Source: Akkermansia sp. (GTDB lineage Bacteria; Verrucomicrobiota; Verrucomicrobiia; Verrucomicrobiales; Akkermansiaceae). Taken from it: a stretch of 64,000 nt of DNA. The notes below the pieces were generated by a model. The model did not search any database. It had not been told where the DNA came from and saw only the letters and a list, made by a program, of their open reading frames with translations. The DNA lies in assembly GCA_017521405.1 (NCBI GenBank), contig JAFXCP010000006.1:51602-115601 (forward strand), given 5' to 3'. Shown here in pieces: positions 49,612 to 64,000 of the stretch. Position 1 is the first letter of the stretch; every line of letters begins with the position of its first letter. The translations under genes and the position numbers were made by a program.

Positions 49612-51072
49612 TTAGGCAAGAGCGGCAGAAAACCGTTCGAGCAAGCCACGTAGTGCAGGGTCCTTTTGCATTTTGTTTTCAATGGTGCGAGTGGCATGCA
49701 AAACGGTTCCGTGGTCTCGTCCGCCGAAAGCGGCTCCTATATCCTGCAAGGAGCTGCATGTATGCTTGCGGGCAAGGTACATAGCCACTTGCCGAGGATG
49801 GGCAATAGCGGCAGTGCGGCGTGGGCCATTGATATCGGACGTACAGAGGTGGAACTCCTCCGCCACTCGCTGTTGGATGTCCTCAATGGAAACGGTGTTG
49901 AACAGGTAGCTGGTGCGGGGCGTTGTCATTAAGTCCCCGAGATTTTCGCGCAGGAACGCTATACTGGGGCTGCTGTTATGCAGTACGGCATAAGCACTGG
50001 CGCGTACCAGCCCGCCTTCCAAGGAACGTACGGAGCTTGTGATACTCCGGGCAAGGAAATGCACAATTTCCTCGGAAAGAACCTGTTTTTCCCAGTGCTG
50101 CATCTTTTGGCGGAGGATTTCCACTCTGGTCTCATAGCTGGGAGCGGTAAGTTCCACTGCCATCCCCTGTTGGAAACGAGTCACCAGGCGGGAATCCATG
50201 TTCGTGATGTGGGACGCTGGGCAATCTGCCGAGAGAATAATCTGTTTCCCGCTATCAAATAAGGCGTTGAACGTGTGGAAAAATTCCTCCTGCGTCTTCT
50301 CTGTGCGAGCCATGAACTGCACATCGTCAATCATCAGCACATCGGCTTTGCGGAATTTGCGGCGGAAATTGTTCAGAGCATCCCCCTTCTTACGCACTGC
50401 CTCGATGTAGGAATTGGTGAACTCCTCGCAAGTAACGTACTGTACCACCACCTCCGGCCGCCGGGCACGGATGGCATGCCCGATGGCGTGCATTAAATGC
50501 GTTTTCCCCAGCCCGGATGCACCGTGGATGAAAAGCGGGTTGAACATCCGCTGCTCCGAGTGAATCAGGGCTTGGGCTGTGGTATAAGCAAAATCGTTAT
50601 TGGGTCCCACCACCATATTCTCGAACGTGTAAGCCTCGTTCAGCTTGGTGCCTTCCTTAATCTTTTTTTTGGTGCGGGGCGGGGTTGCTGTGGATGCCTC
50701 CTTATTGGTTGCAGGGGCGGAAGGCTCAGCCTGCGGCTGCACCTCTTCCTTTTTCTGCTCTGTAGTAGTGGGTTTTTGCTCGTTGAGCGCAGCCGCGATG
50801 GCGGCGGATTGCTCCCCGGCTTCCACAAATTGTAACTCTCTCGGTGTTCCCATCACACTTGCGATGGACATCTCCATGTACTCGCGATAATTCATCTCCA
50901 GCCATGCAATCATCTGGCCGCGCGGGTACTCTATGATAAACTTGCTGCCTGTATCTTCAATCAGGCTCAGCTCGGAGATGAACTCAACACCGTATCCCCC
51001 CGCATGCCCGCGGGCTTCCAGATCCATCAGAATCCGGTCCCACAGGTCTCTGTTCTCTTCCTTACGGCTCAT
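49612..51072 (-). CDS. dnaA: Chromosomal replication initiator DnaA
   Basis: AAA+ protein that opens the origin. The 486-aa protein has an N-terminal domain I (to about 85), a variable acidic/Pro linker (about 90-140), an AAA+ core with TFENMVVGPNNDFAYTTA, Walker A IHGASGLGKTHL, Walker B DVLMIDDVQFM and sensor SRLVTRFQQGM. The C-terminal DNA-binding domain IV has AIAHPRQVAMYLARKHTCSSLQDIGAAFGGRDHGTVLHA. Neither dnaN nor gyrB flanks it. thiL lies upstream beyond an AT-rich region. Confidence 0.98.
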   Translation of the reverse strand: MSRKEENRDLWDRILMDLEARGHAGGYGVEFISELSLIEDTGSKFIIEYPRGQMIAWLEMNYREYMEMSIASVMGTPRELQFVEAGEQSAAIAAALNEQKPTTTEQKKEEVQPQAEPSAPATNKEASTATPPRTKKKIKEGTKLNEAYTFENMVVGPNNDFAYTTAQALIHSEQRMFNPLFIHGASGLGKTHLMHAIGHAIRARRPEVVVQYVTCEEFTNSYIEAVRKKGDALNNFRRKFRKADVLMIDDVQFMARTEKTQEEFFHTFNALFDSGKQIILSADCPASHITNMDSRLVTRFQQGMAVELTAPSYETRVEILRQKMQHWEKQVLSEEIVHFLARSITSSVRSLEGGLVRASAYAVLHNSSPSIAFLRENLGDLMTTPRTSYLFNTVSIEDIQQRVAEEFHLCTSDINGPRRTAAIAHPRQVAMYLARKHTCSSLQDIGAAFGGRDHGTVLHATRTIENKMQKDPALRGLLERFSAALA

Positions 51073-53757: not shown

Positions 53758-54249
53758 CTATAGTGTTATGTGACGAAGACGGAGGCTTTGAGCATCTAAC
53801 ACGGCAAAGCCCGGTTTTTCCTGTCGCCCGTATATTTCTCCGGGGTTAATGAGCGGAACCTTGCCTATCTTCTCTACGGCAGCACAGTGCGTGTGCCCAT
53901 AGAAAACAGCATCATAAATTCCCCTTTGTGCGGCCTTTTGTGCAGTCCACGGCAGGTGGCACATGAAGAATAGCCTTTGCCCGAGACGAAGCTCTGCCGT
54001 ATCCCCATGCAAACAAACATGGGGATACTGCTCTGCTACACGGTAAAAGGCATGGCGGTCATACTCATTATTACCAAAAACCACATCCAGAGCCTGTGTC
54101 CATTCCTCGCAGAGCATACGGAACGTAGAAAGCATAGCCAAATCCCCCAAACAAAGTAAATGCTCACAGCCGGCTTCTCGTGCAGCGTGAAGTGCCAGTA
54201 GCAGGTGTGTGGTGTGGTCATGAATGTCGGAGAGAATGGCAATGCACAT
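53758..54249 (-). CDS. YfcE/MJ0936-type metallophosphoesterase
   Basis: The 163-aa protein begins MCIAILSDIHDHTTHLL, with ligands D-x-H. It continues with HLLCLGDLAML (GD), VVFGNNEYDRH (GN), FFMCHLP and FYGHTHCA (GHTH), then INPGEIYGRQ, the standard order of calcineurin-like phosphoesterases. The ATG at 54249 is used because the longer ORF reads through the end of the preceding gene. It lies five bases after the 54255 gene. Probable phosphodiesterase of unknown substrate. Confidence 0.92.
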   Translation of the reverse strand: MCIAILSDIHDHTTHLLLALHAAREAGCEHLLCLGDLAMLSTFRMLCEEWTQALDVVFGNNEYDRHAFYRVAEQYPHVCLHGDTAELRLGQRLFFMCHLPWTAQKAAQRGIYDAVFYGHTHCAAVEKIGKVPLINPGEIYGRQEKPGFAVLDAQSLRLRHITL

Positions 54250-54254
54250 AAGAA

Positions 54255-56390
54255 TTACTGCGTGCTGAAGATGGGAGAAAACAGGAGAACCTTTTCCATT
54301 GGCTCCCCATAAGGTATGGCGGTGAGCATATCCTGTCCCACATACCAAAGAATTGTACCCTCCTCCATAGTTTGGTACAGAATAGGCTGTCCCTTTTCAT
54401 CCACGTAGCCACAATAGCGGGGGGTAATGTTAAGCACCTGCTGAAAATTGTGAGCCATTTCCTTGGCATAATCTGCACCGGCGTGCTGCCGGAACCAGCG
54501 GGAATACGCTTCTTCTGCCTCCTTGGTTTCCTGCGCGGGAGAAATCCAGCAAGTCCCATGGAGTGGCACATTCTTCCTCTCTTGCTGTAAGCGGCGGAAG
54601 GACTTAATGTGTTTTTTGAGGGTGGGAGCATAGTGCATGCCGGAAATCGCTTTCCAACTGTGCAGCTCCAGTACTCGTACCAGTGTGCTGTACACATATG
54701 CCTTAGCAAGAGCCGGACAATCCTCGCTTTCTAAATTAAGCACGTTGGTAAGCACGGCCGGAATACTGGCCGACATGAGGAAACGGGGCTTATTGTCCAG
54801 AATAGCAATCTTATGAAGCGGTGTTGTATCGATTTTTCGGCTCCAGACGTGGTGTGGATCCTGCCATTCCACTTTGCGCTGGTGGCTCATGGATTTAGCC
54901 GGGTCCAGCCCGGAACGCAGAAAGACCACGCGCTTATTCCGCACCACCGGCGATTCGTCGGCATAACACACTTCTCCCTCCGCATTCGTAAGCTCAAAAA
55001 TCGGCCGGCGGAGTGCCGGGTTAGAGAATAATTCATCCAGCAGTTGAAGCTGCTGCCGTGTTGCCGGAAACGCACTCGGGAAGGTACCTTTTTCCCCCAG
55101 CAGACACGCCGTGGCATCTTCCAACTGCTTCGGTGTTAAATCCCGGCGGTAGACTCTTATACCATTCTGCACTTCATCCGCATCCGGCAAAATATCTCGT
55201 ATTTTCAACCACTCCGCAGCCGGGGGATAATGCTCTGCCTGAACTCCCAGCAGCATCTCCCTGTACTGTGCATACGTGTGGGCAGAGGGAAAAAGTCTCA
55301 TTCCCTTCAGCATATTCTCCGCACTTCGGAGACTACGAGCTACCTGCTGCTCTTCCTTACGGAGGGGAATAAGGTGTTTTTCGGCAATTCCGTAGGCATC
55401 CCTCGCATCGGCATAAAGCTCAAGCAAGCGGGAAACTTCCCCGGCCCTGGCTTGCAGCTCGGAGATGTCCTCCTCCGGCTTTCCCTGAAAAACGATGGGG
55501 GAGAAAGGCTTTTGCAACTGCGCCAGTGCTTCCTCCTTCTGCCGGAGCATGTTTTCCTGCTCAATAGTACAAATTTTTTGCCAGCGCACATTCAGCTCCG
55601 GGCGATACTCTCCCACCATTTGCCGCAACCGCTCAATTTGAGCCTTGGTGCCGATGGAAACCCCATCCGCATATTCGCGCCGCTCCGCCTGTCGCAGTAA
55701 GAGATCGAGTTGTGTGCATTTTTCCTGAATGCTCTGCAGCCGGTTTCGTAGTTTTTGGGCTTCCTCGTGCGTGCGGGAACAGAAGAGTCGATTCAACCCG
55801 GTATCGTAAGCGTGCAACCTGTTTTCCGCCTGCCCCCACAGGCCTTCTATTCGCGTGGCTGCCAGTACATCGGCGGCATGTGCGGCTTTCTTTTGCAGGA
55901 AAAATCCTGCACTGTACAGCCCGCCGAGCAGTAGAAGCACCAAAATTGCCGGACGCCGCATGCGGGATACCAGCCCCTTCTGCCCCAATCGGCGTTGGAG
56001 TGCATTGCGGTATTGCTCCATCTGGCGCCACTCTGCGGCATCTGCGGAGTGGGTAAGCTGTTGCTGAAGAGACTTCAGCTCCTTATGCTTTTTTTTCAGC
56101 TCCCGAGGGGGTAGGGAGAGGATGAGTTCCGGCTCCCTGTGGTATTCCTCCAGTAGTTGCACAAGGCGTTTCCGCGAGCGTATGGCTTTGTGGTGGTGTT
56201 GCTCTAACTCCTCCTTTTCAAAAGAAAAAAGCTCCCCGTGCAGCAAGTGGTATAACTCCTCTCTGGCCCACTTATCCAGAGGGTTAGTCTGCAGAAGCTC
56301 CTCTAAATAGGCACGTGCCTCCTCGCGTTTCCCGGCTCTGGCCAAACGCTGGAGTTTTGCTTGCTGCGGAGTCTTTCTCTGCCGTCTCAT
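54255..56390 (-). CDS. Coiled-coil membrane protein of the GTPase operon
   Basis: The 711-aa protein has a helical, TPR-like N-terminus (residues 10-50, RLARAGKREEARAYLEELLQTNP), charged coiled-coil helices (about 55-140), one membrane span (about 147-165, PAILVLLLLGGLYSAGFF), further coiled coil (about 170-330) and a C-terminal region without recognised motifs (about 340-711). The ATG at 56390 overlaps the preceding gene by four bases (ATGA), so the two are coupled. A structural or membrane-tether role in a complex with the two upstream proteins is inferred. I know no family for it. Confidence 0.8.
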   Translation of the reverse strand: MRRQRKTPQQAKLQRLARAGKREEARAYLEELLQTNPLDKWAREELYHLLHGELFSFEKEELEQHHHKAIRSRKRLVQLLEEYHREPELILSLPPRELKKKHKELKSLQQQLTHSADAAEWRQMEQYRNALQRRLGQKGLVSRMRRPAILVLLLLGGLYSAGFFLQKKAAHAADVLAATRIEGLWGQAENRLHAYDTGLNRLFCSRTHEEAQKLRNRLQSIQEKCTQLDLLLRQAERREYADGVSIGTKAQIERLRQMVGEYRPELNVRWQKICTIEQENMLRQKEEALAQLQKPFSPIVFQGKPEEDISELQARAGEVSRLLELYADARDAYGIAEKHLIPLRKEEQQVARSLRSAENMLKGMRLFPSAHTYAQYREMLLGVQAEHYPPAAEWLKIRDILPDADEVQNGIRVYRRDLTPKQLEDATACLLGEKGTFPSAFPATRQQLQLLDELFSNPALRRPIFELTNAEGEVCYADESPVVRNKRVVFLRSGLDPAKSMSHQRKVEWQDPHHVWSRKIDTTPLHKIAILDNKPRFLMSASIPAVLTNVLNLESEDCPALAKAYVYSTLVRVLELHSWKAISGMHYAPTLKKHIKSFRRLQQERKNVPLHGTCWISPAQETKEAEEAYSRWFRQHAGADYAKEMAHNFQQVLNITPRYCGYVDEKGQPILYQTMEEGTILWYVGQDMLTAIPYGEPMEKVLLFSPIFSTQ

Positions 56391-59224
56391 GAGCCTTTCT
56401 GCTTTGTCTGCAACTGGAAGAGCCACACAAGATCTCCGTGTTCCCCCACATGGAGCCGCTTCAGCATCAGAATCAAGGTGCGCTTGTTGCGGGTGCGGTA
56501 GCGCTCCGTTTCATGAGCATATGCCTTGGAAAGACTGCGGGAAAGCACCTCACATATTCTTTGGCGAATCAGGCGGCGCGTCTCCGGGATTTGTAGTATC
56601 TCACCCAATTGGCGTCTGGCCTTGCGTGCCTGCCATTTGTCGGATATAGCCATCTCGTAACTCAGGGTGAGAGCCGGCTCCTTGCGGAATATCTGTTGCA
56701 GAATGTTGCAGAATACCTTGTTATTAAAGAGTTCGCAGTACTCGCTTTGCAACTTCTGGCGTTCCTTGCGGGAAAGCTCTGTATTATCCAACTCCATGCA
56801 AATGCGGTACAGATTAGCGAGACTGTAAGTGGCATTACCCTCCGGCACCTCCCCGCAGCAGCTGGTATTCGCCACGGTTTGGAAAACGCGCATCAACTGT
56901 TCTCCCGGGGGTAATTTAGATTGCAGAGAACATTCGAAGGTTGTTTCCGTCTCTGTTTCCGTGAGCAGTTTACTATTCCAAGCAATGCGGGGATTTGTTT
57001 CCTTATCGACCGGGGCTTCCGCCAAACTGTTATGCCCGCCTAAGCCCGGTAGCTGTACCTGCAGCTTGCCAATCTTTCGGTGTTGTTCCAGCTCGGTCCA
57101 CGGGTATACCTTCGGAACTTCCAAGAGAAGCTGGCAGCGTTTCCCCTTTTGCCGGATGCTAAGCTGAGTACTCTTAATCGCAAAAATGCTGCTATCCACC
57201 TTGGGTAAATCGGCGGGCTTATCCGCAGTAATGGGGAAGCCAAAACGCGGCACCAGAAGAACAGGGCTAAGATATTGCTCTGTTTCCGGAACGGGGAAAC
57301 CAATAATAACGGGAGCAGAACGGCATGTGGCGGAAATGAGACGCCCTCCGCGTTCCGTCAGCAATACATCCCCCATATCCTCTCCATTGGCGGCGGTGGA
57401 CAAACGCAAAATGTAAGTACCCTTTTTCTCTCCCGGTAAAATATGCAGCACACAGCCCGGCGCTTGCAAGGTTGTTCTTTGCGGCGGCAAAATCGTACCG
57501 TTCGGGGCAAAATCCGCCCGCACCCACTCCCCATAGTTCACTTGGCAGGGAGCTTGGTGCAGGAGCTGTTGTAATTTTTCCGGCAGGACATCTCCCGCCA
57601 AAACAGGCTGGGGCAGGAGGGCAATGCGCGGGGGCAAAGGTGCGGCATTCTGCTCGGTTTCCGCCGTTTTTTCGGCCTCGGTGGAGGCAAGCAGGGTGGT
57701 CTCCGGGGTGGGGGGGAGGAGCTTTGCGGTGTAGTGGCTAAAGGGCGGTTTGTGTAATTCCGAAAGTACCACGGGCTCCTGCTCCATCAGTTTGGCCCAT
57801 AGTTCCTTCTCTTCCTGCGTGAGAGCAGGGAGTAGCTCCTGCCGGTCCTTCCCATGCGAAACTTGCAGCAAATAAAACCTCACCAGTCGTCCTTCCGAAA
57901 TTTCCAACATGCGGCCGTATGCACAGAGCCTGCGCAGATATTGCGTGTGTTCTGAGGCTGTCAGTTCGCCGGAAATCGTGAGAATGCTCAGCAATTCCTT
58001 AAGCGCAGCCGTTTTGTCACCGGGCTTTTGGGGTGATACGGAGCCTATCTCCAGCGCAAGCTTTTGTAGCTGCACCCTGCTGGCATGCCACTCCTCCTGC
58101 GATGCGGCGAGATTTTCCAGCGCATTCAGGGCACTTTGCAGCACAGCGGTTTGATTTTCCTGCGCTATTTCTTCAGTCATCTGTGCCGGGGGGAGGGCAT
58201 AATCGATGATTTCATGCACTCCGGCTGCAATTCCCAGCACCAAAAGAACGGCGAATCCTCCCCCCAGCATAAGCCTCAGGGGATGCTGCCCTGGGGCAGA
58301 TTCATATCCGTAAATTTCCTCATCCGTCTCCTCTATGTAGGAATAATGCAAGCCATGGTCTTGCAGGATTTTTTGCACAGGAGGCGTTTCTGCCTTGGGG
58401 ATCGGGGGCTCCATGGCAGAACTTGCCGGCGGCAACCCCGGGGAAGCAGCGCTGACGGAGAGCTGCATTTCCGGGCCGATATGCAAAGCCGGGCGTTTTT
58501 GTCTTGCGGCTCTTTGTACCCAGGGGCATGCCTCTCCCACGGTAATGCGGCATGTCTCGGCAAAAGTATCCGTTTCATCACCGCAAGTGGTAAAGGTAAC
58601 CCCCCAGCCGTGGGTCGGAGTAAGCCAATCACTCTCGTGGAAAAGGTGCAGAATGCTGGTGGAGGCAATCCCCTTGGGAACGATAACGAGACAATCGCGC
58701 TCATAAGGCGGTGTAAAGAACGCTTTTGCGTTGGATTTATGCCCGGTAATCTTTTTCCAAGTGGGCTGAGCAGTAGCATCCGGCAAATCTTGCAGAGAAA
58801 GCTCCGGCTCGCCGGAAAGGTAAGCCGGCGGCCCGCTCCAGCACTTGCGCCAGAAACCCTTGTTTTGCAGCGCCAGCATAATACCTGCCGGGGTGGGGCC
58901 CAGCTCATTTCCCAAAAGTTCCAATACCTCGGCGCGGGTTAGGAGCAGGTGGTGAGCAATGTGGCAGGCTCGGCCGGTATAATCGGCTCCGGCCATTTGT
59001 GCACAGGTAAGCACATGGTACTGCTCCCCGCCGGATTCCAGTATGCGGTATGAATACTGTGCGCCACTCACTACCGGAAAGTCCGGCTCCCGGAAATTGC
59101 TCAGAGCCGTTACTCGGCGCCGGAGAATCCGGGGCATCTCCTGCGTGCAGGCAACCGTTCCATAGCCGGACAACGCTGAATCCAGCAAAGTCGGGGCACT
59201 GGTATGGATGAGCTGGTAAGACAT
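56387..59224 (-). CDS. GAP1-N2-like GTPase-associated membrane protein
   Basis: The 945-aa protein begins with a domain (about 1-240) that resembles GAP1-N2 of GTPase-associated systems: SALSGYGTVACTQEMP, YSYRILESGGEQYHVL, AGADYTGRACHIAHHLLL and WGVTFTTCG. Then come a Pro-rich linker, one membrane span (about 317-340), a helical region, and a large C-terminal part that includes a beta-rich section (about 540-770) and an all-helical end (about 800-945). It lies 18 bases after the GTPase gene. The assignment rests on remembered family patterns. By that family, it would be the adaptor/regulator of the GTPase. Confidence 0.7.
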   Translation of the reverse strand: MSYQLIHTSAPTLLDSALSGYGTVACTQEMPRILRRRVTALSNFREPDFPVVSGAQYSYRILESGGEQYHVLTCAQMAGADYTGRACHIAHHLLLTRAEVLELLGNELGPTPAGIMLALQNKGFWRKCWSGPPAYLSGEPELSLQDLPDATAQPTWKKITGHKSNAKAFFTPPYERDCLVIVPKGIASTSILHLFHESDWLTPTHGWGVTFTTCGDETDTFAETCRITVGEACPWVQRAARQKRPALHIGPEMQLSVSAASPGLPPASSAMEPPIPKAETPPVQKILQDHGLHYSYIEETDEEIYGYESAPGQHPLRLMLGGGFAVLLVLGIAAGVHEIIDYALPPAQMTEEIAQENQTAVLQSALNALENLAASQEEWHASRVQLQKLALEIGSVSPQKPGDKTAALKELLSILTISGELTASEHTQYLRRLCAYGRMLEISEGRLVRFYLLQVSHGKDRQELLPALTQEEKELWAKLMEQEPVVLSELHKPPFSHYTAKLLPPTPETTLLASTEAEKTAETEQNAAPLPPRIALLPQPVLAGDVLPEKLQQLLHQAPCQVNYGEWVRADFAPNGTILPPQRTTLQAPGCVLHILPGEKKGTYILRLSTAANGEDMGDVLLTERGGRLISATCRSAPVIIGFPVPETEQYLSPVLLVPRFGFPITADKPADLPKVDSSIFAIKSTQLSIRQKGKRCQLLLEVPKVYPWTELEQHRKIGKLQVQLPGLGGHNSLAEAPVDKETNPRIAWNSKLLTETETETTFECSLQSKLPPGEQLMRVFQTVANTSCCGEVPEGNATYSLANLYRICMELDNTELSRKERQKLQSEYCELFNNKVFCNILQQIFRKEPALTLSYEMAISDKWQARKARRQLGEILQIPETRRLIRQRICEVLSRSLSKAYAHETERYRTRNKRTLILMLKRLHVGEHGDLVWLFQLQTKQKGS

Positions 59225-59242
59225 ACGGGCGCAGGGCGTGTA

Positions 59243-60985
59243 CTAATTCTGGGCGGCCGGGATAAGAGCAGGCTCCACCTCGTGCAGAGCCCACAGCATG
59301 GGCTCCGTTACCCGGAAGGGGCGCACCTGCCCACTGGCAGGACCGATGAGCGTGGTGCCGCTGATTTCATCCCGGAATTCCACGGGCGATTCCCCCAGCG
59401 CACTGGCGGCAAAATAGCGCACATTGGCGGATATAGCCTCCGCATTTGTGCAGATATGCGGTGCAATGTTGAAAATAAACTGCCGCAAGCGTTCGGAATT
59501 GAGGTTAATATGCTCCGGCATAAACATACCATTGCGCGTGGCTGGCAGAAGAGGCTCCGGTCCCAGCAGGTGCTTCCATGTATCGCATTTCCCGATGATG
59601 ATGGCCATGGGAATATTCAGCTTTTCGGAAGGAGGCAGATTCAGGCGGGTGCGGAGGCGCATTTCCGATTCTGCCAGCAGCATTGCCTGCCGTCCCGGGC
59701 GGTACAGAGAATTCCGCAGCTGCGGGTCATTACTGCTGTCCTGGAGTAAGCGCCGGAATCCGGGGTTCGCCGTCGGGTCGAACAGGAAAAGAATGGCAGA
59801 GGCCACAGCCAGATGGTGGCTGCCCGGGGTCAGTGCCGTATCCCGCCCGGGCTGAAAATCCTCCCCGGCATTATCGTACAGCACAATGGAATGCGTCTCC
59901 CCATCCTTATTCAGGTTATAGATAAAAGGGCGGGGCATATTGGCAAACACACCATTTCTCCACACCTTGTGGTAGAGCCGCCCCTGCATTCGTGTTTTGC
60001 CAATATAAGCCTCCTGCGGAGTCTGGGCGGAGAAGAGGCGCTCGCACATATCATTGAGCGGTTCATTGCTCACGGGGTCTGCGTCCCGGAAAGGTAAGCC
60101 GAAATCCCTGGGAAACTGCAATTCCAGCTCCCGCACCAGAGAAGCCAGATAATACGTTTTACCCGCTGCCGGCACCCCCACCAATGAAATAATGTGCTGG
60201 TGGGTCTGGGAGAAGAAGGGCGGGAGCTTTTGGTGGCAATGGGGGCAGGCATACTCACTGCACGAAGAGCCACACGCATCCACCGGCATCCCCTGTGCAT
60301 TTGTCTCCTCCGGGAGGAAGCGGAGCATATCATCCTCGCCCAGAATATCATCCCCCATCAAATCCGGATGCACGGCAATGGCCAGCTCCTCTCCGGGTTT
60401 GAAAAACTCCCAGCAGGAAGGACAGCGCAGGGATTCCGGTCGGTGTGCAGGCAGGGGTGCTTCCTCCGGCTCCTCCGTGGTGTGCATGGCATAATCCGCC
60501 ACATCCAGAACATCATGCAGGTAAAAAGCGCAATGCTCCAGCCCTTGGAACGTGGCCAGAATACCTTGCGGTAATTCCCTGGCCACCACGGGCAGGCTCC
60601 TTAGCGCGTAGGGGCCGTACCACTCGCAAGCCTCTGCGTTATACAAGTACCATACGGAAGGGTCGTACTGGCTAAAATCCGGGCGCGAGGCCTCATTCCC
60701 ATACCAGCAGATAAAGCAACCGCCCTCCAGTACGAAGAGATACATCGTCTCCGGGCGAATAACCACATCCCCATTCATGCTAATGCCATTCAGAGAATAC
60801 CCGGCCACCTTGCCATGCGGGAAAAATCGGCAGGCTCCATCCCGCTGGGCGAAAGACCCGCCGCTCTGCGCGCGCATGCGCACGCGAAAAGTATTCTTTT
60901 CCCCGGCGCCTATCGTCATAAAGTTGCCGTCGGAGGTGCGTAATTTCGCTTTAAGGCAATCGTAAATGTAGAGTTGCTTATTCAT
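59243..60985 (-). CDS. GTPase with FHA-like N-terminus and Zn knuckles (DO-GTPase2-like)
   Basis: The 580-aa protein shows an FHA-like N-terminal beta domain (about 5-95, IGAGEKNTFRVRM, GYSLNGISMNGDVVIR), then a GYF-like segment (about 111-150, VWYLYNAEACEWYGPYAL). Two CxxC pairs follow (CPSC 188-191 and CPHC 247-250), which may bind zinc. The NTPase domain has Walker A GVPAAGKT (270-277) and YYLASLVREL, G3-like VLYDNAGED and G4-like IIIGKCD. This order resembles the double-GTPase type 2 proteins of predicted conflict systems. It is the first gene after a strong promoter and upstream of the GAP1-like partner. GTP specificity is inferred. Confidence 0.75.
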   Translation of the reverse strand: MNKQLYIYDCLKAKLRTSDGNFMTIGAGEKNTFRVRMRAQSGGSFAQRDGACRFFPHGKVAGYSLNGISMNGDVVIRPETMYLFVLEGGCFICWYGNEASRPDFSQYDPSVWYLYNAEACEWYGPYALRSLPVVARELPQGILATFQGLEHCAFYLHDVLDVADYAMHTTEEPEEAPLPAHRPESLRCPSCWEFFKPGEELAIAVHPDLMGDDILGEDDMLRFLPEETNAQGMPVDACGSSCSEYACPHCHQKLPPFFSQTHQHIISLVGVPAAGKTYYLASLVRELELQFPRDFGLPFRDADPVSNEPLNDMCERLFSAQTPQEAYIGKTRMQGRLYHKVWRNGVFANMPRPFIYNLNKDGETHSIVLYDNAGEDFQPGRDTALTPGSHHLAVASAILFLFDPTANPGFRRLLQDSSNDPQLRNSLYRPGRQAMLLAESEMRLRTRLNLPPSEKLNIPMAIIIGKCDTWKHLLGPEPLLPATRNGMFMPEHINLNSERLRQFIFNIAPHICTNAEAISANVRYFAASALGESPVEFRDEISGTTLIGPASGQVRPFRVTEPMLWALHEVEPALIPAAQN

Positions 60986-61006
60986 TTGCCCTGTATATCG
61001 CTAAAA

Positions 61007-61035
61007 AATGTAGCAAAACCGGGCAGGGGAGTCAA
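61007..61035 (-). promoter_or_regulatory. Promoter of the GTPase-associated operon
   Basis: TTGACT (61035-61030), a 17-base spacer and TACATT (61012-61007) on the minus strand, about 20 bases before the ATG at 60985. AGGG precedes the start codon. Confidence 0.75.
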
Positions 61036-61063: not shown

Positions 61064-63067
61064 TCAATCCTCATCCAGCATATTGTGGATGGAAGCAAAG
61101 AAATCCATGCAATCCTCCTCCGATGCCGGAGCCTTCATCAGCCGGTCGTAATCGACAAACTCGTACATTGTGGCGGGAATCTCCCGTATAAAACAGGAAG
61201 GCGCGCAGCGCTCCTCCTGCCCGTAGCGGTTGCGCTTGGCGCAGTAGGTCATCGTAAGCCGTTCCCTAGCGCGGGTAATCCCCACATAGAAGAGGCGGCG
61301 CTCCTCATCCAGACTTCCCTCATCCACGGAGCGTGTATGCGGCAGCAGTCCCTCCTCCACCCCCACAATATACACATGGGGAAACTCCAGCCCCTTGGCT
61401 GCATGCATAGTAATAAGGCACACACCACTCTTTTTTTCAATATCCTCATCCTCCCGCTCATCATCCAGACTAAGGGAAGCCAGGAAATCCGTCAGCTTAT
61501 GCCCCGGGAGCCAGAATTGCCGCAAGGCCACCTTAATATCATCAATTGCCGCCAAGCGCCGTTGGCGTTCCTCCTCTGTTTTGCAAAGGCGGGCAATGTA
61601 ATCCTCGTAGCCCGTCTCCTGCAGGAAATCCTGAAGAATATCCACAAAAGGACGTTCACTGGCGGCAAACTCCGTACCATAGCGCGTTACCAAGTCCGTA
61701 AAAGTGCCTATACTGTTTTGGGAGCGAGTGGAGCATTCGGCAAGAAAAGAAATATCCAGCAGCGTGGCCCACAGGCTCTTTTTATGCTCCCGGCTCCAGT
61801 CAATAGCGAAATTGGCCGTTGTTGTGCTAATACCTCGGGGTGGCGTATTGAGTACCCTTAGCAAGTGCAAATCCGCATCCGGATTATCCATCATCATCAG
61901 GTAACTGAGCAAATCCTTCACCTCCCGGCGGTCGAAAAAGCTCTTGGTGCCCACCATGCGGTACGGAATGTGGCGCTCGCGCAGGGCCATTTCCAGCGGG
62001 CGGCTTTGGGCATTGGCGCGGAAAAGCACGGCAAAATCATCCCATTGCTGCTTGCCCATGGCATGCAGCTGTTCAATCTCATCCGCCATGAATTCGGCCT
62101 CCTCCTGAGACCCCGGCATAGCCATGAGCCGCACCGGGTAAACCCCCACCTTATTGGTGCGCAGAGTCTTATCCCGGCGGCCGCTGTTGTGGCGAATGAG
62201 CGTATTGGCACAATCCAACACCTGGCGGGTACAGCGGTAATTCTCCTCCAGCTTAATCACCTTGGGATTCGGGAAAAAACTCTCGAAATCCAGGATGTTC
62301 GAAATCTGAGCCCCGCGCCACCCATAGATAGATTGGTCATCATCCCCCACCACGCACACATTATGCTCCGGCCCTACAAGCTGGCGAAGCAAACTCATTT
62401 GGAGCGAATTCGTATCCTGAAATTCATCCACTGTTATGTGGGAAAAACGCTTATTCCATTTCTCATGCACCGTAGGGTAGCAACGCAACAGCCGCTCCGT
62501 TAAAATCAGTAAATCATCAAAATCCACTGCATTTTGCGCTTTCAACTCCCTTTGGTAAGCCCTCGCCACTGCTGCAATAAGCGTATCCTCAATCTGCTCC
62601 GGCCCCAGCCCTGCATTCCTCACTCGCGACATTTCCCCCAGCACCTGTGCCGGCTCCAGTTTCTCGCGTCGCGCCCCATACTCCATAATCAGGCGTTTAA
62701 GCAGCCCGCTCTGGTCACTCCCCGTATAAATGGAAAAATTTTCCTTATACCCGAGCCGCCCGATATCCTGCCGCAAAATTCGCACACAGAGAGAATGAAA
62801 CGTACACACCGTCATCGCCCGCGCTGCTTTACGGTCCACCAGCCCGGCCACACGGTCGGCCATCTCATTAGCTGCCTTGTTGGTGAACGTAAGAGCCAGA
62901 ATACCACGCGGATTCACCCCCCGCTCAATCATGTGTGCAATACGGCAAGTCACCGTGCGGGTCTTGCCCGTACCGGCCCCGGCCAGAATAAGTACCGGTC
63001 CGTTGAGTGTCTGCACGGCCATCTTTTGGGCGGGATTCAGGCTGTTGATGTCGAACTTTTCTGCCAT
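61064..63067 (-). CDS. UvrD/Rep-family DNA helicase
   Basis: Superfamily 1A ATP-dependent 3'-5' helicase of 667 aa. Motifs visible: LNPAQKMAVQ (Q motif), LAGAGTGKTRTV (Walker A), ALTFTNKAANEM, ITVDEFQDTNSLQ (Walker B), VVGDDDQSIYGWRGA, KLEENYRC, FAVLFRANAQSRPLE, ISLDDEREDEDIE-type linker, LITMHAAKGLEFPHVYIVGVEEGLLPH and LFYVGITRARERL. It is closer to Rep/PcrA than RecB in length. The ATG at 63067 is preferred since it begins at MAEKFD, directly before the conserved part. Its role in repair or replication restart is the family norm. It ends 29 bases upstream of the GTPase operon promoter. Confidence 0.93.
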   Translation of the reverse strand: MAEKFDINSLNPAQKMAVQTLNGPVLILAGAGTGKTRTVTCRIAHMIERGVNPRGILALTFTNKAANEMADRVAGLVDRKAARAMTVCTFHSLCVRILRQDIGRLGYKENFSIYTGSDQSGLLKRLIMEYGARREKLEPAQVLGEMSRVRNAGLGPEQIEDTLIAAVARAYQRELKAQNAVDFDDLLILTERLLRCYPTVHEKWNKRFSHITVDEFQDTNSLQMSLLRQLVGPEHNVCVVGDDDQSIYGWRGAQISNILDFESFFPNPKVIKLEENYRCTRQVLDCANTLIRHNSGRRDKTLRTNKVGVYPVRLMAMPGSQEEAEFMADEIEQLHAMGKQQWDDFAVLFRANAQSRPLEMALRERHIPYRMVGTKSFFDRREVKDLLSYLMMMDNPDADLHLLRVLNTPPRGISTTTANFAIDWSREHKKSLWATLLDISFLAECSTRSQNSIGTFTDLVTRYGTEFAASERPFVDILQDFLQETGYEDYIARLCKTEEERQRRLAAIDDIKVALRQFWLPGHKLTDFLASLSLDDEREDEDIEKKSGVCLITMHAAKGLEFPHVYIVGVEEGLLPHTRSVDEGSLDEERRLFYVGITRARERLTMTYCAKRNRYGQEERCAPSCFIREIPATMYEFVDYDRLMKAPASEEDCMDFFASIHNMLDED

Positions 63068-63132
63068 GGAAGCGCGTCCAAGGGTAGCAGATATCGCCCC
63101 GCGCTGGCAAGCAGAAAATCCGTCCCCGCACC

Positions 63133-64000
63133 TCACAACCAAAACGCCCCGGCACCTCGCACCCCCTGCAAATCCACATACCGTGTCCGCAGCAGGGAAG
63201 CATCCCGGTGCCCCACCTCATACTGCAGCGCCGTATAACTGCGGAAATGCCCCAAATGGTAACTCGCAAAAGTATGCCGCAGCACATCCTGCCGCCAGGG
63301 GCGGGCAGGGCTGCCCCAGCCCGCCGCACGGTGCAGCGCCGCCCAATGCCGCCCCCAGCTCGCAGGGCAAATACGCCCGCCGCCCCCCGCCGCAGCCCTC
63401 TCTAAAATACGCCGCAGCGGAGGATGAATCGTCACCCGCCGCGCTCCACCCGTCTTACTGTGCCGCGCCTGGAGCGCAATATACCCATGCACCAAATCCA
63501 CCGCATCCCAAGTAAGCCGCGCCACCTCGTGCGGCCGAATCCCCGCATACAACATCATCCCCACCGCAGGTAGGCAAACCCCGCCCTCGTACACCCCCGC
63601 CGCCTCCAGCAACTGCTCCATCTCCCCCGGGCTTAAAATCTCCACCCGCCCCTCCACCACCCGCGGCACCTCCACCCGCGCCACCGGATTCTCCGCACAC
63701 CACCCCCGCCGCCACGCCGTGGAAAACACCGCACTCAGCACCGCCCGCGCCTTACGCAACTGCACCGGAGTCGAAAAAGCCCCCCTCAAATACCCCTCGC
63801 AATCCCGCGCACTCATCCCCCGCACCCGCCGCTGCGCCAGCCCCTCATTCCGCCGCATCAGCCGCCTGCACACATAGCGAAAATCCGAAAGCGTACGCGC
63901 CCGCCTATCCTTGCGCGCCTCCAGCGCCTCCTCCACCGCCCGCTCAAAACACACCGTCCGCTCCTGCTGCTCCAGCGCCGCCGCCCCCGCCGCCACACAC
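63133..64000 (-). CDS. Tyrosine recombinase/integrase, GC-rich (5' end uncertain)
   Basis: A phage-integrase-type protein. The visible part has an N-terminal SAM-like core-binding domain (LSDFRYVCRRLMRRNEGL, LRKARAVLSAVFSTAWRRGWCAENPV) and a catalytic domain with the Arg in YAGIRPHEVARLTW, a Lys in HSKTGGARRV, LRHTFASYHL and VGHRDASLLRTRYV (His and Tyr). In place of the usual H-x-x-R the sequence reads DVLRH, so the first His is Asp, a variant I associate with one integrase group. The reading frame remains open to the right edge; a GTG at 63996 is possible but unsure. Base composition is much richer in G and C than its neighbours. Confidence 0.87.
   Translation of the reverse strand, partial: CVAAGAAALEQQERTVCFERAVEEALEARKDRRARTLSDFRYVCRRLMRRNEGLAQRRVRGMSARDCEGYLRGAFSTPVQLRKARAVLSAVFSTAWRRGWCAENPVARVEVPRVVEGRVEILSPGEMEQLLEAAGVYEGGVCLPAVGMMLYAGIRPHEVARLTWDAVDLVHGYIALQARHSKTGGARRVTIHPPLRRILERAAAGGGGRICPASWGRHWAALHRAAGWGSPARPWRQDVLRHTFASYHLGHFRSYTALQYEVGHRDASLLRTRYVDLQGVRGAGAFWL

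Follow-up and report, generated by a model that had tools for sequence, protein, structure and literature searches.

A conserved gene trio of Akkermansia encoding an FHA-fronted GTPase, a GAP1-N2 protein and a coiled-coil membrane protein is a candidate GTP-controlled trans-envelope complex

Introduction

Sequence comparison led to the naming of the GAP1 and DO-GTPase families in 2020. Loci of the GAP1-N2 type, those of verrucomicrobiae included, are classed in the main text of Kaur et al. 2020 (PMC7159879) as conflict systems that combine a constant switch with variable parts, and a calcineurin-like phosphoesterase is given there as the commonest effector domain of the GAP1-N1 systems. The words MotA, TolQ, ExbB, ExbD, PilM, pilus, Zorya, stator, proton and Akkermansia are absent from that main text. 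In the passages that the literature offers under the terms DO-GTPase, GAP1-N1 and GAP1-N2, no experiment on these proteins is reported, and our literature search returned no paper joining the GAP1/DO-GTPase core to MotA/ExbB-type or PilM-type genes.

The gliding motor of Myxococcus is controlled by MglA, a small Ras-like GTPase of a family other than DO-GTPase, and we know of no GAP1, FHA or GYF part in the AglRQS/MglA system. The motor itself, AglR-AglQ-AglS, is described in the source text available as a trans-envelope complex of one MotA/TolQ/ExbB-type and two MotB/TolR/ExbD-type proteins (PMC4488436). A survey of stators names ExbBD, TolQR, AglRS and Zorya types in its main text, where the word GTPase does not occur (PMC12505986).

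How does the Akkermansia locus described here compare with these systems? With the GAP1-N2 systems, as set out in the main text of PMC7159879, it shares a DO-GTPase2 with CxxC pairs, a GAP1-N2 gene directly downstream, membrane spans, the combination of a constant switch with variable parts, and GYF-bearing partners (found in planctomycetes in that account). It differs from them, again as that text presents them, in that no FNIII component, tubulin, HSP70 or kinase was found in the trio, and in the FHA-GYF front of its GTPase, a recurrent large partner protein and the MotA/ExbB or PilM/PilO genes of its relatives. FNIII was sought in the three proteins of the trio and in 20 proteins of the relatives' loci without a match, and for this reason we regard the trio as a variant GAP1-N2/DO-GTPase system rather than an ordinary member of the kind. 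The core pair of GTPase and GAP1 is known from the text of PMC7159879, and the motor-type and PilM-type gene clusters of the relatives are the new, and strongest new, element.

Results

The locus and its neighbourhood

The locus lies in a stretch of 64,000 nt (the window) from contig JAFXCP010000006.1 of Akkermansia sp. (GCA_017521405.1), and all coordinates are positions within this window; loci and genomes from elsewhere carry L and G numbers. Three minus-strand genes stand head to tail, with a gap of 18 bases between gene 1 and gene 2 and an overlap of 4 bases between gene 2 and gene 3, which confirms the initial annotation of three adjacent or overlapping genes, and this tight spacing is conserved across the genus. 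The promoter annotated ahead of them exists as a sequence, but the number of TTGACT-17-TACATT-like sites in the region is not above chance. The features are as follows.

61007..61035, minus strand: sigma-70-like promoter sequence, TTGACT-17-TACATT, ending 21 bases upstream of gene 1
59243..60985, minus strand: gene 1, FHA, GYF-like, CxxC-pair and DO-GTPase2 protein, 580 aa
60686..60985, minus strand: FHA domain of gene 1, residues 1-100 (predicted fold)
60482..60664, minus strand: GYF-like region of gene 1, residues 108-168 (position and model strands)
60236..60424, minus strand: two CxxC pairs, C188, C191, C247 and C250 (55/55 genus rows)
60155..60178, minus strand: Walker A / G1, GVPAAGKT, residues 270-277
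59861..59875, minus strand: G3, DNAGE, residues 371-375 (D371 in 44/55 and E375 in 34/55 rows)
59582..59593, minus strand: G4, GKCD, residues 465-468 (K466 and D468 in 55/55 rows)
56387..59224, minus strand: gene 2, GAP1-N2 protein with one span, 945 aa
58928..59224, minus strand: GAP1-N2 domain, residues 1-99 (Pfam PF20013, E 8.3e-10)
58274..58453, minus strand: proline-rich linker before the span, residues about 258-317 (proline content)
58217..58273, minus strand: membrane span of gene 2, residues about 318-336 (hydropathy)
56390..58216, minus strand: variable, probably periplasmic C-terminal part, residues 337-945 (identity to L002-L015 is 23-30%, against 69-78% for the GTPase)
54255..56390, minus strand: gene 3, one-span coiled-coil protein, 711 aa
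55896..55952, minus strand: membrane span of gene 3, residues about 147-165 (hydropathy)
54807..55007, minus strand: possible SH3-like barrel in gene 3, residues 462-528
54258..54734, minus strand: C-terminal region common to the relatives of about 1000 aa, residues 553-711 (BLASTP, profile comparison)
53758..54249, minus strand: calcineurin-like phosphoesterase, Metallophos_2 (PF12850, E 9.2e-26), 5 bases after gene 3

The phosphoesterase gene is possibly an extra member of the operon and is followed by genes for a phosphopantetheinyl-transferase-type protein, an Rce1-like (CAAX protease) protein and an AIR-synthase-type protein, which we call ThiL-like. A DnaA-type gene (window 49612-51072; PF00308, E 1.4e-59) stands behind the thiL-like gene, a position kept in relatives. 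Upstream of the trio (window 61064-63996), in the place taken by panC and an ABC ATPase in close relatives, are genes for a UvrD helicase and a recombinase of the phage-integrase family, and GC content reaches 0.60 with a GC skew of -0.28 in window 62001-64000.

An FHA-fronted GTPase and two membrane proteins

What do the three genes encode? Gene 1 passes the Pfam cut-off for DO-GTPase2 (PF19993, 32.5 bits vs 27), and gene 2, which begins 18 bases downstream, passes that for GAP1-N2 (39.3 bits vs 24), so that the original assignment to the GAP1-N2/DO-GTPase kind holds. The predicted structure gives residues 1-100 of gene 1 the beta-sandwich fold of an FHA domain, as the initial annotation had proposed; by sequence and fold, an FHA fold precedes a GTPase of TRAFAC type (DO-GTPase2) in this protein, and genes for two one-span proteins come next in a conserved order. 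The phosphothreonine-contacting arginine of FHA domains would, on our assumption, fall at residue 27, which is alanine in the window protein and arginine in 9/55 genus rows; N66 is kept in 53/55. Pfam GYF_2 matches two of the seven gene 1 relatives scanned, and the window protein gives no Pfam GYF match. From the cysteine pattern, the CxxC pairs are a probable zinc ribbon, with the best Pfam zinc model at an E value of only 0.51. Across the 55 genus rows the nucleotide-binding residues of G1, G4 and G5 are kept and those of G3 vary. The GTPase is 68-78% identical to 14 named relatives, all of them Akkermansia or Akkermansiaceae MAGs and mostly from ruminant gut.

Proline makes up on average 14.2% of the 60 residues preceding the span of the GAP1 protein vs 6.3% of the GAP1-N part, and is higher there in 60 of the 68 GAP1 proteins with a clear span. 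This linker is a plausible docking site for GYF and could also be plain disorder. Length ranges from 266 to 1052 aa among GAP1 proteins, and it is the C-terminal ~600 residues that form the truly variable part of the system; the initial annotation had suggested a possible component or effector here, and no effector domain was recognised. Pfam GAP1-M is unmatched at E <= 1 in the window protein and in the relative L074, and matched in L064 (1.8e-10) and L081 (4.8e-12). GAP1-C is unmatched in the window protein and three relatives, in a Pfam library that may hold no GAP1-C model.

A direct relation of gene 3 to proteins of about 1000 aa at loci outside the genus is shown for its last ~160 residues only, where BLASTP finds L074 (E 3e-4) and profile comparison finds the ~1000-aa proteins (E 3.7e-4, probability 36%); the link otherwise draws on iterated profiles, layout and gene order. 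The 711-aa protein had first been thought a possible swappable effector. This idea finds no support, because a related large protein accompanies the GTPase and GAP1 in 30/32 loci outside the genus. Protein 3 is a recurrent core partner, though a few genomes do without it, some Akkermansia among them despite its recurrence elsewhere.

The orientation of both membrane proteins was read from lysine and arginine counts on the two sides of the span in 72 gene-3-type and 68 GAP1 proteins with a clear span each; ten GAP1 proteins below 330 aa and 16 proteins lacking a clear span, among them the L003 GAP1 just under the threshold, fall outside this count. The excess lies on the N side in 68/72 gene-3-type proteins (0 reversed, 4 equal) and in 53/68 GAP1 proteins (7 reversed, 8 equal). 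Under the positive-inside rule the positively charged side of a span is cytosolic, so the N-termini would be cytosolic and the large C-terminal parts periplasmic. Proteins 2 and 3 have one span each by sequence, which agrees with the initial annotation, and probably outward C-termini. That annotation had also seen no obvious toxin, and indeed no toxin domain exceeds the cut-offs of Pfam, NCBIfam or PADLOC in the trio, where PADLOC matches are weak only (E 0.015, 0.11 for gene 3).

Occurrence within Akkermansia

The GTPase occurs in 53/77 genus genomes, and in 45 of these 53 the order is GTPase, GAP1, gene 3, phosphoesterase. Gene 3 is missing in three (G292, G300 and G307; loci L102-L104, the same genomes as L012-L014), the trio has no adjoining phosphoesterase in two (L067, at a contig end, and L130, a divergent copy elsewhere), GTPase and GAP1 stand by themselves in one (L068, the copy of G193), and two are undecided (G319, with the stretch not covered, and G297, cut inside GAP1). 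Together with the relatives outside the genus, this context survey shows that the trio co-occurs in other genomes, as the initial annotation would have it.

The phosphoesterase is present in 72/77 genus genomes, trio-less ones included, and its surroundings were inspected in 14 of the 24 GTPase-negative genomes. Ten of these stretches hold none of the three genes, three hold gene 3 alone (G335, G337, G340), and in G005 GAP1 and gene 3 stand with a transposase-looking ORF (judged by eye) at the place of the GTPase. The trio is absent from larger-genome Akkermansia, for example G021, G024, G113 and G033; the core is not obligate.

Gene 3 precedes the phosphoesterase with no GTPase or GAP1 beside it in L140, L141 and L142, whose genomes have no GTPase at E <= 1e-5, and gene 3 may therefore have a use of its own. 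A divergent type of trio, with a gene 3 of 829-910 aa, is a second copy in G051 (L072) and G300 (L132) and the only copy in G288 (L130); a Sel1-repeat gene follows it in L072.

Vertical inheritance and uneven rates of change

The window and the same eight rows group together in the trees of all four genes, with support of 100/98 for the GTPase, 94/89 for GAP1, 95 for gene 3 and 95 for the phosphoesterase, the last two being FastTree values; in the GAP1 tree the nine-row group is drawn at 94/89 and supported at 13 rows. Pairwise distances of all gene pairs correlate over 44 loci (r 0.67-0.83), with 0/999 permutations as high. Identity to L002-L011 and L015 is 73-78% for the GTPase, 54-61% for GAP1-N, 24-30% for GAP1-C and 30-33% for gene 3. 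The GTPase is more alike across relatives than the neighbour genes are and the outward parts less alike, so that, as judged from these alignments, the GTPase is slow-changing and the apparently outward-facing halves of proteins 2 and 3 are fast-changing.

In the 25 of 26 close pairs listed, every dN/dS value of the three genes that can be computed lies below 1, at 0.02-0.25 for the GTPase where dS is finite, 0.13-0.57 for gene 3 and 0.07-0.74 for the GAP1 C-part, many synonymous distances in these pairs being saturated. The trio shows purifying selection. In L118/L119 and L125/L128, synonymous distances jump between neighbour genes (for L118-L119, 1.06 in the GTPase vs 0.09 in GAP1), a sign of local allele exchange. 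The trio has no phage match, two distant plasmid matches and no match in viral contigs. It looks unlike a mobile defence cassette in having the same neighbours in 45/53 GTPase-positive genus genomes, the same tree as the flanking gene and purifying selection.

Relatives with channel or PilM-type genes

Among 288 genomes of the phylum the GTPase was found in 51, 43 of them outside the genus, and 30 of these 43 supplied 32 loci (two genomes gave two loci each), from which the locus gene profiles were also built. A MotA/ExbB-type channel gene lies in the cluster in 17/32 loci and a PilM-type gene instead in 6/32. Neither module is found in 5/32, with a flank of at least 3 kb, and 3/32 are cut by an edge, one of them (L061) with a channel match just past the stretch on the same contig. 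The remaining locus, L078, has no GAP1 and is not counted as a GAP1-N2/DO-GTPase system. The large gene-3-related protein stands beside GTPase and GAP1 in all but L057, which is cut, and L078. What comes before the GTPase is the channel genes in L077 and the large protein in L060.

The operon channel genes are above the Pfam MotA_ExbB cut-off in all five tested, and Thr196, Thr237 and Thr238, which we take to be pore residues as in other MotA/ExbB-type channel proteins, are invariant in 17/17. One or two genes for one-span coiled-coil partners accompany the channel in 15 of the 17 loci, and both partners have an invariant Asp at their span (15/15 and 10/10). These partners agree with ExbD/TolR/MotB in topology and invariant Asp only; two proteins scanned gave no match to a Pfam ExbD model, and partner profiles were negative against the small ExbD-like proteins of the window's genome (E 0.15 and 0.34).

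Is the channel tied to the GTPase? The operon-type channel (E < 1e-115) occurs in 22/288 genomes, all 22 GTPase-positive (hypergeometric 3e-19, uncorrected for relatedness). Because 11 of the 22 supplied the query alignment, they hold the GTPase by construction; the remaining 11/11 hold it as well (1.5e-10, likewise uncorrected for relatedness). The search is two-humped, with 22 genomes below 1e-115 and the others at 1e-38 to 1e-63, where open frames are mostly longer (402-570 aa except one of 291). A separate MotA/ExbB-type family, mostly in frames of 460-570 aa, is seen in G254, G066, G190, G038 and others, in many Verrucomicrobiota, and its similarity to the operon channel reaches only 1e-38 to 1e-63. 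Within the strong group, 20 of 23 matches lie within about 10.5 kb of the GTPase match on the same contig, two lie on a contig with no GTPase match and one lies at 23 kb.

The operon-type channel is absent from the 23 genus genomes of the phylum sample. Motor genes are absent from the window's contig, where the four MotA_ExbB matches of the genome do not lie, and no operon-type profile finds a match in the window other than those of GTPase, GAP1 and gene 3. The Akkermansia trio is a reduced form devoid of motor genes, and any motor reading therefore rests on the relatives.

The GAP1 proteins of the six PilM-type loci are all short (312-361 aa) and have no clear span after residue 240. In L081 (15005-18277), GTPase, GAP1 and the large protein are followed by a PilM-type, a PilO-like and a third small gene (PilM_2, E 1.4e-9; PilO weak, E 0.004, below cut-off); like PilM/PilO stretches occur in L047, L080, L083 and L084, and PilM only in L079. 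GYF-fronted proteins with trypsin, PrsW, RDD, DUF4190 or DUF805 parts adjoin the large protein at L050 (5728-7071), L049 (892-3165), L074 (1353-2003) and L077 (376-1119), some of the GYF matches being below the Pfam cut-off.

Comparison with described envelope machines

The relatives' operons have the one-plus-two make-up of AglR-AglQ-AglS as the available text of PMC4488436 gives it. This is an analogy only, with membership not claimed, and the window itself has no motor genes. Like Zorya, the operons combine a MotA-family channel with one-span partners, and their channel proteins match ZorA models weakly (best E 3.6e-6), as the L064 large protein does the ZorC model (E 3.6e-4). They differ from Zorya in the length of the 17 channel proteins (283-369 aa vs 461-1063 for ZorA models) and in the presence of GTPase and GAP1, and the window trio has no channel. 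The window trio does not qualify as Zorya, since no ZorA-type MotA channel with a ZorB partner was found at its locus, the four MotA_ExbB matches of the genome being on other contigs. With the PilM-PilN-PilO platform of type IV pili, L081 shares PilM_2 and a weak PilO after the core, and five more loci have like genes; it differs in that the PilM part of L081 sits in a 601-aa protein with a membrane region, and the platform genes are absent from the window.

Discussion

The trio is a real, conserved and probably membrane-bound GTPase system, in which a likely GTP-driven switch and two single-span proteins probably work together across the envelope. We propose that it forms a predicted GTP-controlled trans-envelope complex, for signalling or force transmission, of the GAP1-N2/DO-GTPase kind, a proposal we consider evenly poised between right and wrong. 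With its FHA and GYF parts the GTPase would dock on both membrane proteins from the cytosolic side, the likeliest contact being that of GYF with the proline-rich linker of GAP1. The conformation of protein 3 and of the GAP1-N2 domain would then depend on GTP binding and hydrolysis, and the conformational signal would cross the two spans to the fast-evolving periplasmic domains, which may sense the cell wall or outer envelope or act on it.

What was this device for in its ancestral form? Since the core shares an operon with MotA/ExbB-type or PilM/PilO-type genes in the relatives, it was probably an energised or assembly-controlling envelope machine gated by the GTPase. We suggest tentatively, and expecting to be wrong rather more often than right, that the GAP1-N2/DO-GTPase loci of Verrucomicrobiota are the control unit of an ion-driven trans-envelope machine and not primarily a toxin-deploying immunity: an FHA-GYF-DO-GTPase/GAP1 clutch would gate a dedicated MotA/ExbB-type motor through a spanning coupler of 1000 aa, PilM/PilO-type genes would be an alternative output, and Akkermansia would keep clutch and coupler without the dedicated motor. 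Under the main proposal of a GTP-controlled complex, the Akkermansia form would retain the switch and its two spanning partners and serve as a sensor or coupler; alternatively, it may borrow one of the genome's four other MotA/ExbB-family proteins.

An alternative hypothesis is that the trio is a phage-defence or cell-death system. Sensing or execution would then fall to the periplasmic halves or to the neighbouring phosphoesterase, with a threshold set by the GTPase, and an infected cell would be killed or stalled once the system is activated. The main text of PMC7159879 classes GAP1-N2 loci as conflict systems, and the constant and variable pattern seen there recurs in the trio, which is patchy in the genus (53/77), has a calcineurin-like phosphoesterase directly after it and carries signs of local allele exchange in some pairs. 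However, the same neighbours are kept across the genus and inheritance is vertical (four trees with the same nine-row group), dN/dS is below 1 where computed, no toxin domain was found and PADLOC matches are weak, there are two distant plasmid matches but none to phage or in viral contigs, and the phosphoesterase also occurs in trio-less genomes (72/77 in all). We favour an envelope machine over a defence or cell-fate role because the locus is fixed and vertically inherited and the relatives carry motor-type genes; defence is possible, with less support, and on balance we think it unlikely.

Could the trio instead regulate growth, division or polarity with no motor involved? Here the GTPase would position or license envelope enzymes and proteins 2 and 3 would be membrane receptors. 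The housekeeping-type genes beside the locus, the slow evolution of the GTPase (dN/dS 0.02-0.25 where dS is finite) and the PilM/PilO-type genes of six loci fit such a role, but the outward parts evolve fast, and the absence of the trio from G021, G024, G113 and G033, all Akkermansia with larger genomes, means that growth of the genus does not need it; we regard this role as quite improbable. That motor genes are gone from Akkermansia, that partial states exist (gene 3 by itself, GAP1 plus gene 3, GTPase plus GAP1) and that GAP1 varies widely in length might also point to a decaying remnant of a larger motor operon, passing through stepwise loss with no present function. Long open frames, dN/dS below 1 for all three genes where computable, tight spacing and conserved nucleotide-binding residues argue against decay, which we think very unlikely indeed.

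The operon link between the core and the channel gives a concrete and testable function, that of a GTPase gating an ion-driven envelope machine, and frames a clear choice between defence and envelope physiology. Moreover, the division into a constant part (the GTPase), a recurrent part (gene 3) and a variable part (the GAP1 C-terminus) tells where the sensed ligand may be sought.
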